NCBI RefSeq assembly: GCF_025753855.1
Contig: NZ_JAOWPT010000003.1
Coordinates: 1-64,000, forward strand
DNA: 64,000 nt
From: Mesorhizobium sp. ZC-5
GTDB lineage: Bacteria; Pseudomonadota; Alphaproteobacteria; Rhizobiales; Rhizobiaceae
Reading direction: 5' to 3'
Shown: positions 4,808-51,347 of the stretch, piece by piece
Layout: each line of letters opens with the position of its first letter
Numbering within the stretch: the first letter of the stretch is position 1
Notes under the pieces: generated by a model
Seen by the model: the letters and a program-made list of their open reading frames with translations, nothing else
Told to the model about the DNA's origin: nothing
Databases searched by the model: none
Program-made: the position numbers and the translations under genes

Positions 4808-7054
4808 ATGGCAGAGCGCATCGTCAGTTTCGTCATGAGCGGCGGCGTCGGCTCGAGGCTGTGGCCGCTGTCGCGCGAGGACAATCCGAAGCAGTTCCAC
4901 GATCTCTCCGGCGATGGCTCCATGCTGGTCAAGACGCTGCGCCGGCTGAAGGCGCGGCCGGAAGGCGAGACGCCGATCTATCTGATCGCTTCCGAGCGCC
5001 ATGCCGACCGCGTGCGCACCGACATCGCCTCGCTCGACCTCAACGGCGGCGGCGCAATCTTCGAGCCGGTCGGCCGCAACACCGCCGCCGCGGTGGCCGT
5101 TGCCACATTGCAGTCGATCGCCGCCTATGGCGACGACGCGCTGGTGCTGGTGGTGCCGTCCGACCATGAGATTTCCACCGACCGCCAGTTCTGGGAAACG
5201 GTCGAAAAGGGTGCTCCGGCAGCGGCTGAAGGTCGCTTGGTCGTCTTCGGCATCAAGCCGACGCAGCCGGAGACCGGCTACGGCTACATCGAAGTCGCTT
5301 CCGGCGGCGGAGACGTGCGCACCGTATCGCGTTTCGTCGAAAAGCCGGACCTGGAGACGGCGAAATCTTATCTCGCCGCCGGCACCTTCTTCTGGAACAC
5401 CGGCATCTTCCTGTTCCGTGCCGGCGCGATGCGCGAGGCCTTCGAAAAGTTCCAGCCGGAGATCTGGAAGACATCGGCCGAGGCCTTCAGCCACGCCGTC
5501 GGCGATGTGTCGGGTCTCTATATGTCGCTCGACCTCTATTCCGCCATCCCGTCGATTTCCGTCGACTATGCGATCGCCGAGCGGGTGTCCGACATCGCCA
5601 TGGTTCCGGCGGGCTTCCGCTGGAACGATCTCGGCTCCTGGCAATCGCTGCTCGACGTCAGCCCGTCCGACAAGGAAGGCAACGTCGTCGTCGGCGATGT
5701 CGTCGCCATCGACTGCGAGAATTCCTATCTGCGCAGCGAGGGGCGCCTGCTCTCGGCGATCGGCCTGAAGGACGTCGCCATCGTCTCGACGCCGGACGCC
5801 ACTTTCGTCGCGCCGGTCAGCCACAGCCAGAACGTCAAGAAGATCGTCGAGCAGCTCGAAAAGAGCGGCCGGCTGGAGACGAAATTCACCCCCGCGCACG
5901 ACCGCGTCATCGTCAGCGGCGGCTGGCGCAAGCGCGTCGGCCACTGGCTGTTCGAGGAAACCTTGCCGCTGTGGTCGACGGCGGGTGTCGACGAGGTGCA
6001 TGGCGGCTTCCACGAGGCGCTCGGCTTCGACGGCCGCGCGCTGAAGAAGCCGAAGCGCATGCGCACCATGGCGCGACAGATCTATGCCTTTGCGGTGGCC
6101 AAGGAGCGCGGCTGGACCGGTCCTGCCGAGCGACTGATAGACCACGGCATCGGCTTCATCGCGAAGAACGGCCGCACCGACCGCGGCGGCTGGGTGCGCA
6201 CGCTGAATGTCGACGGTTCGGTCGCCGATCCGGTCGAGGATGCCTACGACCATTCCTGCGTGCTTCTGGCGCTGGCCCACGCGCACCGGTCCGGCCATCC
6301 GCATGCCTTGCAACTCGCCGAAGAAACCTTCCGTTTCCTCGACGCGCATCTGGAAGACGCACGCCTGACCGGTTTCCTGGAGACGCCGGACGGGGAGGGG
6401 GTGCGGCGTTCCAACCCGCATATGCACCTTCTGGAAGCATTCCTCGCATGGCACACGGTCACCGGCGATCGCGTCTATCTGCGCCGTGCGGCCCGCATCA
6501 TCGACCTTTTCCGCAGCCATTTCTTCGATGCCGAAAGCTGGACGCTGGGAGAGTTCTTCGACCGCGACTGGAAGCCGGCGGCGGGTGCGGAGGGCGACTG
6601 GACCGAGCCCGGCCATCATTTCGAATGGGCGTCCCTGCTGGTCGATTTCGCGGCCAAGAGCGGCCAGAAGGACCTGATCGTCTTTGCCCGCAAGCTTTAT
6701 GCCTCGGCCATCGCCAACGGCCTCAACCGCGCCACCGGCCTCGCCTATGCTGCGGTGTCGCGCCACGGCCTGCCGCTGGAAGGCGTGTCACGCAGCTGGC
6801 CGCAGTCGGAGGCGGTCAAGGCCGCGATCGCCCTCGACGGCACCGGCGGCCCGGACCTGAAGCCCGAGATCGAGGCGCGCGTCGGCCGCCTGTTCCGCTG
6901 GCACATCGACCCCGCGCCCCAGGGCCTGTGGATCGACCAGATCGACGAGCGCGGTCGCTCGCTGGCGCAGGAGGTGCCGGCGTCGATCTTCTACCACCTC
7001 GTCTCGGCGCTGACGCAATATCTGGACGGGACCGAGGGCGATCCGAAAGGCTGA
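4808..7054 (+). CDS. Mannose-1-phosphate guanylyltransferase fused to AGE-family isomerase
   Basis: A 748-residue two-domain enzyme. Residues about 1-345 are a nucleotidyltransferase with the GDP-mannose pyrophosphorylase signature GGVGSRLWPLSR...PKQF near the N-terminus and RFVEKP further on, making GDP-mannose from mannose-1-phosphate and GTP. Residues about 365-745 are an alpha/alpha-barrel of the N-acylglucosamine 2-epimerase (AGE) family with NPHMHLLEA, HHFEWASLL and SRSWPQSEA blocks. Rhizobial AGE-fold proteins include mannose-6-phosphate isomerases, so this half probably converts fructose-6-phosphate to mannose-6-phosphate. Together with the mutase 14 bases upstream, two genes would cover all three steps to GDP-mannose. 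Common bifunctional ManC/AlgA enzymes instead carry a cupin isomerase. The isomerase specificity is inference. Confidence 0.9.
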   Translation: MAERIVSFVMSGGVGSRLWPLSREDNPKQFHDLSGDGSMLVKTLRRLKARPEGETPIYLIASERHADRVRTDIASLDLNGGGAIFEPVGRNTAAAVAVATLQSIAAYGDDALVLVVPSDHEISTDRQFWETVEKGAPAAAEGRLVVFGIKPTQPETGYGYIEVASGGGDVRTVSRFVEKPDLETAKSYLAAGTFFWNTGIFLFRAGAMREAFEKFQPEIWKTSAEAFSHAVGDVSGLYMSLDLYSAIPSISVDYAIAERVSDIAMVPAGFRWNDLGSWQSLLDVSPSDKEGNVVVGDVVAIDCENSYLRSEGRLLSAIGLKDVAIVSTPDATFVAPVSHSQNVKKIVEQLEKSGRLETKFTPAHDRVIVSGGWRKRVGHWLFEETLPLWSTAGVDEVHGGFHEALGFDGRALKKPKRMRTMARQIYAFAVAKERGWTGPAERLIDHGIGFIAKNGRTDRGGWVRTLNVDGSVADPVEDAYDHSCVLLALAHAHRSGHPHALQLAEETFRFLDAHLEDARLTGFLETPDGEGVRRSNPHMHLLEAFLAWHTVTGDRVYLRRAARIIDLFRSHFFDAESWTLGEFFDRDWKPAAGAEGDWTEPGHHFEWASLLVDFAAKSGQKDLIVFARKLYASAIANGLNRATGLAYAAVSRHGLPLEGVSRSWPQSEAVKAAIALDGTGGPDLKPEIEARVGRLFRWHIDPAPQGLWIDQIDERGRSLAQEVPASIFYHLVSALTQYLDGTEGDPKG

Positions 7055-48255: not shown

Positions 48256-48681
48256 ATGGACATTACCGAAACGCCTGGAAAAAACAGCGAAATGCTGATC
48301 GAACTCACCGCCGATGTTGTGGCAGCTTATGTCAGCAACAACCCGGTGCCGGTTGGCGAATTGCCGAACCTCATTGCCGATGTACATGCTGCATTGGGCC
48401 GAGTTGGTGGCAACAGTGAACAACCTCCGGCCGACAAGCAGAAGCCGGCAGTCAATCCGAAGAAATCCGTGCACGATGATTACATCATCTGCCTGGAGGA
48501 CGGAAAGAAGTTCAAGTCGCTGAAGCGGCACCTGATGACCCACTACGGTCTGACGCCGGATCAGTACCGCGACAAGTGGAGCCTCGACGCGAGCTACCCG
48601 ATGGTCGCGCCGAACTATGCGGCCGCGCGTTCGCAGCTTGCCAAGAAGATGGGTCTGGGCCGCAAGCGCAAGGCCAGATAA
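48256..48681 (+). CDS. mucR: MucR/Ros-family zinc-finger transcriptional regulator
   Basis: A 141-residue regulator of the Ros/MucR family, which represses exopolysaccharide and motility genes and, in several alphaproteobacteria, cell-cycle genes. An N-terminal oligomerisation region (about 10-50) is followed by the single zinc-finger-like domain: C79-x2-D82, H92 and H96 in [19 protein letters not shown], and a basic C-terminal tail. The second cysteine of Ros is an aspartate here, as in many MucR homologues. The gene is on the plus strand, convergent with the gene at 48705. Confidence 0.95.
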
Positions 48682-48704: not shown

Positions 48705-49058
48705 TTAGCGAAACGGCGCCTTTGGGCGTCGTCTTGCTTTCCAGGGCTGCGCCAAGCGGCAGGGCTGGACCGGCACCGGGCAGGCGTGAGCCCGGCGCAG
48801 TTGGTCAAGCGCCTGCTTGAGCGCGATATGCCGGTTGAGGTCGTAGGCCCAGTGTCGGCGCAGGCCCTTGAGCCGTTCCCGTTCGATCAGCCGCTCGACA
48901 CGCTTCATTATGTGGATTGCCTGGTCCGGTCTGGCCGCCAGCGCCGCGGCCATGTCGACGCCTGAAATCAGGCGCAAGGCCACAAGTTGGCGCGCTTCCA
49001 TTTCGAGCACTGCCTTGCGCGCCTTGAAAGCGCGTATTTCACCGAGAATTCCGGACAT
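48705..49058 (-). CDS. Conserved helical protein of unknown function
   Basis: A 117-residue protein from ATG 49058, with AAGGTGGG 6 bases upstream (a GTG at 49064 lies too close to it). It is all-alpha and highly charged (residues about 5-85: EIRAFKARKAVLEMEARQLV, HIMKRVERLIERERL), with a basic, Pro-rich C-terminus. No domain is recognised. It shares the divergent promoter region with the DnaA-domain gene at 49271, including the putative LexA box. Confidence 0.65.
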   Translation of the reverse strand: MSGILGEIRAFKARKAVLEMEARQLVALRLISGVDMAAALAARPDQAIHIMKRVERLIERERLKGLRRHWAYDLNRHIALKQALDQLRRAHACPVPVQPCRLAQPWKARRRPKAPFR

Positions 49059-49192
49059 TTGCACCCACCTTGTTTGCCTGGGCCATTGTTGGCGCTGGCT
49101 GAGGGGGTGGGGATGAATCCGTGCGATATTTTTATGCAGGACAAAAATATCACACTGTTTTCAATGGCTTGTTAAAATCTGCCCTTTTTCAT

Positions 49193-49207
49193 GTTCCTTT
49201 TTTGTTC
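49193..49207 (+). promoter_or_regulatory. Putative LexA (SOS) box GTTC-N7-GTTC
   Basis: GTTC (49193-49196), spacer CTTTTTT, GTTC (49204-49207), a perfect direct repeat with T-rich spacer matching the alphaproteobacterial LexA recognition sequence. It lies 64-78 bases upstream of the GTG of the DnaA-domain gene, and a TATAAG (49228-49233) could be the -10 element with the second GTTC forming the -35 region. Confidence 0.6.
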
Positions 49208-49232
49208 ACACCCTGCATCAGGCTGCGTATAA

Positions 49233-49269
49233 GAACATATTCCTATCTTCTTCGTCGAAGGATATGTTC
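49233..49269 (+). promoter_or_regulatory. 5' leader hairpin sequestering the ribosome binding site
   Basis: GAACATAT-T-CC (49233-49243) can pair with GGATATGTTC (49260-49269), ten pairs with one bulge, and the loop contains a nested CTTCG-T-CGAAG. The Shine-Dalgarno AAGGA (49258-49262) is in the 3' arm and the GTG start follows at 49271, so the hairpin could gate translation. The same DNA is also a long dyad that could bind a protein. Confidence 0.5.
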
Positions 49270-49270
49270 C

Positions 49271-49690
49271 GTGCAAGCGCTTCAGGTTCAATCTTCTCTT
49301 CAGCTACGCAAACTGATCGACAAGTCGGCGCTCTGGCGGCCAAAGATCTGGCGGCCGAGCGGCAAACGCAACGAGGAGGTCATCGAACTCTGCGAAGGCA
49401 TGATCGACGTGACCGCCGCGCTGTTCTGCGTCAGCAGCAAAGACATGCGCAAGACCGGGCGGACCTCATTCGAGATATCGCGTGTCCGCCAGATCGCCAT
49501 GTATGTAACGCATGTCATCCTGGGTCTCTCAATGACCGAGGTCGGCAAGGGGTTCCAGCGCGAGCGCACCACGGTGTTATATGCCTGCCATCTGATCGAA
49601 GACATGCGCGACGACCCCGACTTCGATCGAATCGTCGCGATGACAGAACGGGTGGCGGTGGCGGCATTCCGCAATCACGAGGTCGCATAA
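49271..49690 (+). CDS. Stand-alone DnaA domain IV-like DNA-binding protein
   Basis: A 139-residue protein that resembles only the C-terminal domain IV of DnaA: LFCVSSKDMRKTGRTSFEISRVRQIAMY region (residues about 51-78, written in parts), the recognition-helix block TEVGKGFQRERTTVLYACHLI (89-109) and VxVSxxD-like start. The AAA+ domain is absent, so it cannot bind ATP or oligomerise like DnaA. In DnaA the helix reads GGRDHTTVLHAC; here the base-contacting region is QRERTTVLYAC. GTG 49271 is favoured by AAGGA 8 bases upstream. It is followed immediately by a DUF6456 gene. Confidence 0.85.
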   Translation: MQALQVQSSLQLRKLIDKSALWRPKIWRPSGKRNEEVIELCEGMIDVTAALFCVSSKDMRKTGRTSFEISRVRQIAMYVTHVILGLSMTEVGKGFQRERTTVLYACHLIEDMRDDPDFDRIVAMTERVAVAAFRNHEVA

Positions 49691-50500
49691 ATGGGTCCCG
49701 CGGGGGGAGACAAGCAATGGGTCCGGATCGCGCGGTTCCTGTCGCGCGGCGAGGCAGTGCCTGCCGGCGGGGCCGTCGGCGGCAAGATTCTTCTCGATGG
49801 TGGTGACAGAGGAACGATCAGCGTTCCAAGGATGGCGCTGGAAGCGATGGCCCGGAGCGGCCTAGTCGAGCGCGTCGCCGGCAAACTTTCATTGTCGCAA
49901 ACAGGTGCGGCCTATCTGAGGCGTGCGCTGGCTGTCGGTGATGCGTTCCAGGACCAGCACCGCGACCTCGACGAGATCAGGATCGAGACAACGGCCGGGA
50001 ACATGGCAACCGTCATCGCCAATCTCGCCGAATCGCCACTTGCCCAGTTGGTGCGGCGCAAGGCCAAGGACGGCCGGCCGTTTCTGACGGAAAGCGAATG
50101 GCGCGCCGGGGAGCGGCTGCGCTCGGATTACACGCGCGGGCAGATCATGCCGCGCATGGGAGCGAACTGGGTGGCCTCGGTGGCGTCCGGCCGGCGTGAC
50201 GGCAGCAACGGCGTGGCGGATCTGACCGACGCGGCACTTGCCTCACGCCAGCGGGTGGATGATGCGATTGATGCCGTCGGTCCCGAACTTGCCGGAGTGC
50301 TGATCGACGTCTGCTGCTTCTTGAAAGGGCTCGAGCAGGTGGAAATGGAACGGGAGTGGCCGGTCCGTTCGGCGAAGATCGTGCTGAAGACCGCGCTTGG
50401 CGTTCTGCACCGCCATTATCATCCGCAATCGAGACAGAGCGGCCATGCCGGGCAGATGCTGCACTGGGGAACTGCGGACTACCGTCCGAAAATCAACTGA
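49691..50500 (+). CDS. DUF6456 domain-containing protein
   Basis: A 269-residue soluble protein whose ATG directly follows the TAA of the DnaA-domain gene. The N-terminal part (residues about 5-85) resembles a winged helix (VPRMALEAMARSGLVERVAGKLSLSQTGAAYL in parts), a linker follows, and the DUF6456 core (about 105-250) has PLAQLVRRKAKDGRPFLTESEW, MGANWVASV and WPVRSAKIVLKTALGVLHRHY in short blocks. The family is mostly alphaproteobacterial and uncharacterised. Its tight linkage suggests it works with the DnaA-like protein on DNA. Confidence 0.88.
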   Translation: MGPAGGDKQWVRIARFLSRGEAVPAGGAVGGKILLDGGDRGTISVPRMALEAMARSGLVERVAGKLSLSQTGAAYLRRALAVGDAFQDQHRDLDEIRIETTAGNMATVIANLAESPLAQLVRRKAKDGRPFLTESEWRAGERLRSDYTRGQIMPRMGANWVASVASGRRDGSNGVADLTDAALASRQRVDDAIDAVGPELAGVLIDVCCFLKGLEQVEMEREWPVRSAKIVLKTALGVLHRHYHPQSRQSGHAGQMLHWGTADYRPKIN

Positions 50501-50802: not shown

Positions 50803-51231
50803 CTAAGCGGCCGGCTCGAGCGCCATCGCGGCGTCGCGTTTGATTCGCTTGACCATCGAACGCAGGCCGTTGGCGCGCTGCGGCGTCAGGTGCTCGTCAA
50901 GGCCGAGCTTGCGCAGCGTTGCTTCGGCATCGCCCGCAACGATCTCGCTTGCCCGCTTGCCCGAAAACAACGCGAGCATGATTGCCACGAGACCCTTGAC
51001 GATGTGCGCATCGGAATCGCCCGCAAAGGTGACCACGGGATCCGCGCCGGAGCCGAGGTCGGTTGTCAGCCATACCTGGCTGACGCAGCCCTGGACTTTG
51101 TGAGCGTCGGTCCTGGCGGCGTCCGGGAAAGGCGGCAGCGCCTGGCCGAGTTCGATGACATACCGATAGCGGTCTTCCCATTCGTCTAGGAAGGCGAAGT
51201 CGTCGAATATCTCGTTGATCGTGGTGACCAT
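50803..51231 (-). CDS. sufE: SufE-family sulfur acceptor protein
   Basis: A 142-residue SufE with the sulfur-accepting cysteine in VQGCVSQVW (C49). SufE takes persulfide from the cysteine desulfurase SufS for Fe-S cluster assembly. Start ATG 51231 gives the standard N-terminus (TINEIFDDFAFLDEWEDRYRY in parts). No suf operon is nearby; in rhizobia sufE is often unlinked. Confidence 0.93.
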   Translation of the reverse strand: MVTTINEIFDDFAFLDEWEDRYRYVIELGQALPPFPDAARTDAHKVQGCVSQVWLTTDLGSGADPVVTFAGDSDAHIVKGLVAIMLALFSGKRASEIVAGDAEATLRKLGLDEHLTPQRANGLRSMVKRIKRDAAMALEPAA

Positions 51232-51347
51232 GGCTGCACTGGATATAGTTGCCGCGATGCCAAAGGTCACGGAAAAAGAAGACACCGCAAGGCGCCGAGA
51301 GGGAGGCGCTTGCGGTGGCGCCGGATCGAGCCGGCGTCAAAAGGGGA

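Follow-up and report, generated by a model that had tools for sequence, protein, structure and literature searches.

A LexA-type box in the promoter of gafYZ, the predicted activator genes of a gene transfer agent, in Mesorhizobium sp. ZC-5 and its relatives

Why should a gene coding for only the DNA-binding domain of DnaA carry, at promoter distance, a box of the kind recognised by the SOS repressor LexA? This question is raised by a stretch of 64,000 nucleotides from Mesorhizobium sp. ZC-5 (assembly GCF_025753855.1, contig NZ_JAOWPT010000003.1, positions 1 to 64,000 of the forward strand; hereafter the window), in which the sequence GTTCCTTTTTTGTTC, viz. the direct repeat GTTC-CTTTTTT-GTTC, is found at positions 49193..49207 on the + strand, its end lying 63 bp before the presumed GTG start codon (49271) of the gene in question, gafY. 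In a preliminary description of the window it was proposed that the box is a LexA-type site and that DNA damage would induce a protein able to occupy DnaA boxes, thereby acting as a replication checkpoint. The results presented here confirm that the box is real, with its right half overlapping the presumed -35 region. They lead us to a different view of its significance, in which the box is, with good probability, a LexA operator. It would lie within a promoter of the sigma-70 type that serves gafYZ, the two genes activating an RcGTA-like gene transfer agent (GTA), so that LexA would repress gafYZ directly and DNA damage would license GTA production.

The GTTC-N7-GTTC arrangement at this position is that of the direct repeat of alphaproteobacterial LexA operators. 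The bare motif is present twice in the window as against 2.14 expected matches, which is the level of chance, and it is due to its spacer and its conservation, and not the bare motif count, that the gafY copy stands above chance. In the whole genome, GTTCN7GTTC occurs 186 times versus 127 for a reversed-pattern control, and for the narrower pattern GTTCN6TGTTC the corresponding numbers are 54 and 22. When these 54 sites were scored with a matrix for which ten SOS-type boxes found elsewhere in the genome were used (nine boxes from stretches with SOS-type genes plus the lexA box, the gafY box being left out), the gafY box ranked first, a rank that is not fully independent evidence because the nine training boxes were chosen partly for A/T-rich spacers, which favours a T-rich box. 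Twenty of the 54 sites, chosen mainly for such spacers, were inspected with 4 kb around them, and an SOS-type gene was found behind the box in nine cases (viz. ssb, uvrA, two dinB, two imuA-like genes, a DNA-repair radical SAM gene, yifB and a glycosylase-like gene, with the imuA-like and glycosylase-like genes scoring below the NCBIfam cut-offs). For the other 11 stretches (L129, L130, L132, L133, L137, L138, L141-L143, L146 and L148), either no recognised SOS gene was seen among the scanned open reading frames (ORFs) or the scan was incomplete. A box is also located immediately upstream of lexA, and recA has only a degenerate one, GTACCTGTTTTGTTC. The form of the gafY box, with its T-rich spacer, is thus shared with the boxes of lexA, ssb, dinB, the imuA-like genes and further genes for DNA repair in this strain, and both the type of site and its promoter distance from a gene for the DnaA DNA-binding domain alone were correctly recognised in the preliminary description, the genome-wide search suggested there having given the excess and the rank stated above.

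The identity of the downstream gene is central to what the box could control. The product of gafY (49271..49690, + strand; 139 residues) is a DNA-binding protein that resembles domain IV of DnaA and has no ATPase domain: the only Pfam domain found in it is Bac_DnaA_C (E 1.1e-14), the AAA+ ATPase domain of the DnaA replication initiator being absent from its Pfam matches, and its sequence matches the solved domain IV of DnaA. The DnaA of this genome is encoded by a separate gene on another contig (C2). Directly 3' of gafY, and presumably in one operon with it, lies gafZ (49691..50500, + strand; 269 residues), which codes for a DUF6456 (PF20057) protein, so that a DnaA DNA-binding-domain protein lacking AAA+ is followed by a DUF6456 protein, as in GafYZ and GafA. 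Upstream is found a mucR-type regulator (ROS_MUCR; 48256..48681, + strand) and downstream sufE (50803..51285, - strand), both of which are synteny markers of the Hyphomicrobiales gafYZ, and the resulting order, viz. mucR, DnaA-like, DUF6456, sufE, is the same as that reported for gafA in Hyphomicrobiales, where it is split into two genes (PMC9638019; here and below, the cited papers are drawn upon in the extracts available). Because both the domains and the mucR/sufE order match the published Hyphomicrobiales form, the DnaA-like gene and the gene following it are, by these features of their sequences, gafY and gafZ, the GTA activators. Between mucR and gafY there is also a 119-residue ORF (48705-49064, - strand), for which Pfam, NCBIfam and PHROGs gave no match. 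A separate observation concerns PHROG 31864, which matches the N-terminal part of GafY and, weakly, the C-terminal part of GafZ, and which suggests that a fused GafA-like protein exists in phages.

This identification bears directly upon the checkpoint proposed earlier, according to which GafY would sit on DnaA boxes after damage, compete with DnaA and delay initiation. GafY is a free DnaA domain-IV-like domain, as such a competitor would be, and in an earlier study division was inhibited and some loci had an altered copy number when the Caulobacter homolog was overexpressed (PMC9632790). However, gafY is tied to gafZ, which lies downstream of it in 131 of 136 loci, and to the GTA genes, as described below, and two residues of the DHTT motif of DnaA differ in it (RERTT in GafY versus RDHTT in the DnaA of this genome). 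Based on gene identity, synteny and the published work on Caulobacter, we reject a replication checkpoint, which we regard as highly improbable. Hence, of the earlier interpretation, the SOS-type box and its conservation in orthologs have held up, and the checkpoint acting at DnaA boxes has not.

The conservation of the box was examined at successively larger scales. In a first scan of 85 loci, inclusive of the own genome and three duplicates, GTTCN7GTTC was present within 500 bp upstream in 32 loci, compared with 0.0175 expected per 500 bp as estimated from the rest of the same loci. The addition of 50 genomes from the family or order and of one further stretch from Mesorhizobium albiziae (G002) brought the sample to 136 loci, and after four duplicates were dropped there were 132 promoters, of which 32 have a perfect box, 9 a near one (matrix score of at least 14) and 91 none. 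In a quick tree of 127 rows, which omits five loci without detected GafZ and in which related rows are not independent, the boxes cluster in one clade of related soil and marine bacteria, in which Mesorhizobium-like bacteria are joined by Nitratireductor, Chelativorans, Aquamicrobium, Pseudaminobacter, Aquibium and their relatives. The support value from the Shimodaira-Hasegawa-like approximate likelihood ratio test (SH-aLRT) is 94 for this 45-row clade and 80 for 44 rows inside it. Within the clade the box is perfect and in place in 27 rows, in place with one mismatch in 11 (score of at least 11), elsewhere in 1 and absent in 6, and among the 82 rows outside the clade no box is in place and 2 have a box elsewhere. 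Two further perfect boxes were found in loci outside the tree (L033 and L047). The preliminary description had proposed conservation in other Mesorhizobium genomes as a check, and this is largely borne out: among the 11 records bearing this genus name, the box is perfect in 8 (L041, L042, L043, L045, L047, L048, L061 and L065), has one mismatch in 2 (L056 and L060) and is lacking in 1 (L080). Further, a scan made without reference to any protein, for the box followed after 20 bases by TATAAG (box-N20-TATAAG), gave matches in 64 of 395 family genomes, one in each, from 28 of 109 genera, versus 5 matches for the reversed pattern. All 64 matches were inspected, and 60 of them, from 25 genera, precede gafY (27 of 30 loci, 26 of 27 further stretches and 7 already known promoters). 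Three matches (L226, L227 and L240) are without gafY, and in the remaining one (L214, in G432:C3) the same promoter with its LexA-type box follows a mucR-like ORF, and a transposase-like gene takes up the expected start of gafY. The latter gene looks like an IS1595-type transposase, the names mucR-like and transposase-like having been given by eye.

The structure of the promoter indicates how the box is placed within it. The element TATAAG at 49228..49233 (+ strand), which from its sequence and position is presumably the -10 element, begins exactly 20 bp past the end of the box, and due to this spacing the right half-site overlaps the -35 region. In 39 of 40 box-bearing promoters, TATAAG (37 cases) or TACAAG (2 cases) starts at this same distance. 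For the alignment of promoters 47 sequences were tried, of which 41 could be aligned on the -10 element and six without this anchor were dropped. The conserved islands in these 41 promoters are an IHF-like WTCAA-N4-TT, the two GTTC halves together with the spacer end, which is T-rich, an ACA after the box, TATAAG and GAA-N4-TTCCT, and between them most positions carry less than 0.4 bits. The first island includes, in the window, the sequence TTTCAATGGCTTG (49159..49171, + strand), a site resembling those of integration host factor (IHF), with one mismatch to WATCAANNNNTTR, which we take to be the IHF consensus. The last corresponds to an inverted repeat, AGAA-CATA-TTCC (49232..49243, + strand), which overlaps the -10 element and the presumed start site, and a second, weaker repeat of this kind, AGGA-TATG-TTCC (49259..49270, + strand), is located immediately 5' of the start codon of gafY. 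Both are similar to operators of RogA, the known gafYZ repressor of Caulobacter: the GAA-N4-TTCC repeat resembles the GGAA-N4-TTCC of the Caulobacter RogA region, and the exact GGAA-N4-TTCC is present in L052, L054 and L060. Besides LexA, the genome codes for one further S24-type repressor, of 216 residues, which could be RogA. Its gene (L209:1225-1875) is a candidate for the RogA ortholog. Thus, the LexA-type box overlaps the promoter and is conserved in orthologs, within one clade only.

If the box were an accidental GTTCN7GTTC match, it could have been kept solely through its overlap with the -35 region, and in favour of this are the chance-level frequency of the bare motif in the window and the fact that its right half is a part of the promoter. 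However, the left GTTC lies outside the -35 region and carries 0.9-1.7 bits per position, as compared to at most 0.42 in the preceding 20 bases, and neither the fixed spacing of 20 bp to the -10 element in 39 of 40 promoters nor the 64 genome matches against 5 for the control fit with an accident. A chance match, which is the least probable of the explanations weighed here, is therefore rejected on the basis of ortholog conservation and the protein-blind scan.

The link between gafY and GTA genes is seen both in this strain and across the family. An RcGTA-like cluster is present on the same contig at C3:65.7-79.8 kb, past the end of the window and about 15 kb beyond gafZ, and its genes are in the order terminase, DUF6107, protease, capsid, connector, tail genes, DUF2460, baseplate hub, NlpC/P60 and GTA_TIM gene, so that this genome (G000) has the RcGTA-like order of structural genes. 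Among 61 family genomes, GTA_TIM was found in 46 of 50 bearing gafY versus 1 of 11 without it (Fisher p 1.1e-7; the lineages are not independent, and the gafY-less class was assigned by hand from the matches listed in the gafY search, which for G058 include a gafY-like piece of 35 residues at the end of a contig and for G027 one of two matches). The gafY gene thus co-occurs with RcGTA-like genes, as GafYZ and GafA do. Seven genomes with a portal gene were compared: in six of them gafY and a portal gene share a contig and are 13-24 kb apart, and in G010 each is on a contig of its own. Two side observations were made in this region. A repeat of roughly 70-130 bp occurs at L099 8040-8148 and 11600-11729, with several further copies in the GTA region of M. 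albiziae. In addition, the sequence GTTCATTTAACGTTC is located just beyond the GTA cluster (G000:C3:80137-80151), where it precedes two ORFs, one small and secreted-looking and the other response-regulator-like (both named by eye), and its counterpart is kept in M. albiziae (L207:12470).

Could the direct repeat be LexA-like in its looks only, and serve another protein, either GafY itself in autoregulation or a further repressor of gafYZ? In Caulobacter, gafYZ is co-activated by GafY and IHF (PMC11150451), and, in the extracts available, CdxB and probably further repressors act at its promoter. The right half of the box, TTGTTCACA, is similar to a DnaA box. Of the 23 anchored promoters that do not belong to the box-bearing set, 17 carry TTATCC[A/C/T]CG 25 bp before the -10 element, just one base off the place that TTGTTC has in the box-bearing clade. 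In the Phyllobacterium-type gafYZ promoters (L068, L070, L071, L073-L076, L078-L085, L031 and L032) this element is TTATCCACG (14 cases) or TTATCC[C/T]CG (3 cases), and TTATCCACG is one base from TTATCCACA, which we take to be the DnaA box consensus, so that it may be called DnaA-box-like. However, GTTC-N7-GTTC with a T-rich spacer is the form of the SOS boxes in the same genome. Further, if it were a GafY site, then it would be expected between gafYZ and the GTA cluster, and none is found there in L098/L099 or L206/L207: the sole GTTCN7GTTC of L099 is that at C3:80137, past the last GTA gene, and L206/L207 contain only the box of gafY itself, two matches upstream of that box and the counterpart of C3:80137. 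Lastly, the GafY element at the GTA promoter of Caulobacter is upstream of the IHF site (PMC11150451), whereas the box described here is downstream of the IHF-like site. We therefore consider a site for another protein to be unlikely. As a separate observation, an uncultured metagenome-assembled genome (L072) has GAACATTATAAGAAC, a LexA-type box in opposite orientation, across the -10 element of gafYZ.

Several observations weigh against the interpretation of the box as a LexA operator by which damage licenses GTA production. The role of the box as an operator is a prediction from its sequence and conservation. As its right half is at the same time a promoter element, the conservation of this half may partly serve RNA polymerase. 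Eight of the 11 one-mismatch boxes in the clade have GTTG or GTTT in place of the left GTTC, and in view of the 11 mismatched, 6 absent and 1 displaced boxes some members of the clade may have a weaker control or none. For Caulobacter, RogA is the repressor known to act on gafYZ, and the benefit conferred by GTAs did not require DriD, a damage regulator that is independent of SOS (PMC9632790). The remaining points concern the GTA genes themselves. Four gafY-bearing genomes are without GTA_TIM. No portal (PF04860) match was obtained in G000, and one was found in all 7 other genomes searched. A segment of 2.73 kb between terminase and DUF6107, which is present in M. albiziae, is missing here, the gap being at G000:C3:67591-67737 (L099 about 5590-5740), where two blastn matches overlap by 30 bp at the junction. 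The GTA_TIM domain of the g15-like gene is in two frames (G000:C3:77179-78040), which can be read as either a frameshift or an assembly fault, with a 1297-residue frame open throughout, and M. albiziae keeps only a fragment of GTA_TIM.

Due to these defects, the GTA of the window strain is probably decaying, and because the portal gene is missing the final step, viz. GTA output, probably fails in it. As the box is perfect in both G000 and M. albiziae, whose GTAs look impaired, the box would appear to outlive the function of the GTA within the genus, and it is the wider clade upon which the functional claim is based. We give an even chance to the box being a relic in this strain, i.e. a true LexA operator in the clade, with the GTA of strain ZC-5 itself being dead and its gafYZ either driving other targets or being on the way out. 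The missing portal match, the missing 2.73 kb and the split GTA_TIM are as would be expected for this. However, both gafY and gafZ are intact and their box is free of mismatches, the defects could stem from an assembly fault, and the Caulobacter GafY has 18 further binding sites in addition to those at gafYZ and the GTA cluster (PMC11150451). It should be noted that a relic in this strain is compatible with direct control of gafYZ by LexA, and the two are not mutually exclusive.

The SOS-controlled switching of a phage-like element is familiar from LexA-repressed prophages; unlike these, the element controlled here would be a domesticated GTA and the site is at a separate activator operon. The closest model is Caulobacter crescentus, with which the strain shares a DnaA domain-IV-like GafY followed by GafZ and an RcGTA-like cluster, and whose promoter, with RogA GGAA-N4-TTCC repeats and an IHF site, is resembled by the RogA-like and IHF-like sites described here (PMC9632790, PMC11150451, PMC13236601), IHF having been found to act at the Caulobacter gafYZ promoter (PMC11150451). 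In contrast, for that promoter the available extracts name RogA, IHF, GafY and CdxB and no LexA site, whereas a LexA-type box is present over the -35 region here. The two-gene form with mucR upstream and sufE downstream is that of the split gafA of Hyphomicrobiales (PMC6363796, PMC9638019), but these accounts, as far as available, give no LexA box at the genes concerned. LexA of Rhodobacter capsulatus is reported in the same papers to act on GTA via cckA. In Dinoroseobacter shibae, a predicted LexA site is likewise linked to GTA genes, but that site, identified in silico, is at the GTA cluster itself (Dshi_2167/2168), unlike the clade-conserved box at the activator operon described here (PMC6473078). 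In the literature on LexA or SOS and GTAs, as available in part and with subscription journals mostly uncovered, no LexA box at gafYZ or gafA was found. Nitratireductor, which belongs to the box-bearing clade, includes a strain (44B9s) reported to make functional GTA particles (PMC3419701).

The sites with their spacing and conservation, the genes as identified by domains and synteny, and their co-occurrence with GTA genes suggest the following course of events. With LexA on the -35 region, gafYZ would remain silent, and upon DNA damage RecA would prompt the self-cleavage of LexA, by which the gafYZ promoter would be derepressed. A second repressor of the RogA type, bound at the GGAA-N4-TTCC-like repeats over the -10 element, would also have to be off, and IHF and GafY would assist activation, as in Caulobacter. 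GafY and GafZ, once made, would activate the genes of the GTA cluster together with their partners elsewhere, and with induction of the GTA and release of particles, GTA production would be an output of the SOS response in the clade to which Nitratireductor, Chelativorans and Aquamicrobium belong along with the Mesorhizobium-like bacteria. Such control would explain why a DnaA-like gene is under SOS control without a replication checkpoint being involved.

In Caulobacter, RogA leaves the gafYZ promoter after "some unknown stimulus", and GTAs aid the survival of DNA damage (PMC9632790). The promoter described here suggests the SOS response as the trigger of GTA production for a whole clade. More tentatively, and with somewhat less than even probability, it may be that in this clade, for which boxes have been verified in 25 or more genera, gafYZ is held directly by LexA, together with a LexA-like RogA, and that upon damage some cells lyse and share packaged genome fragments as repair templates for their kin, i.e. 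as a damage-gated public good, whereas in the sister group (Phyllobacterium and kin), with a DnaA-box-like element instead, the input has been rewired between a replication and a damage signal. For these bacteria, the results suggest that DNA damage would trigger the sharing of genes, and not a replication checkpoint.
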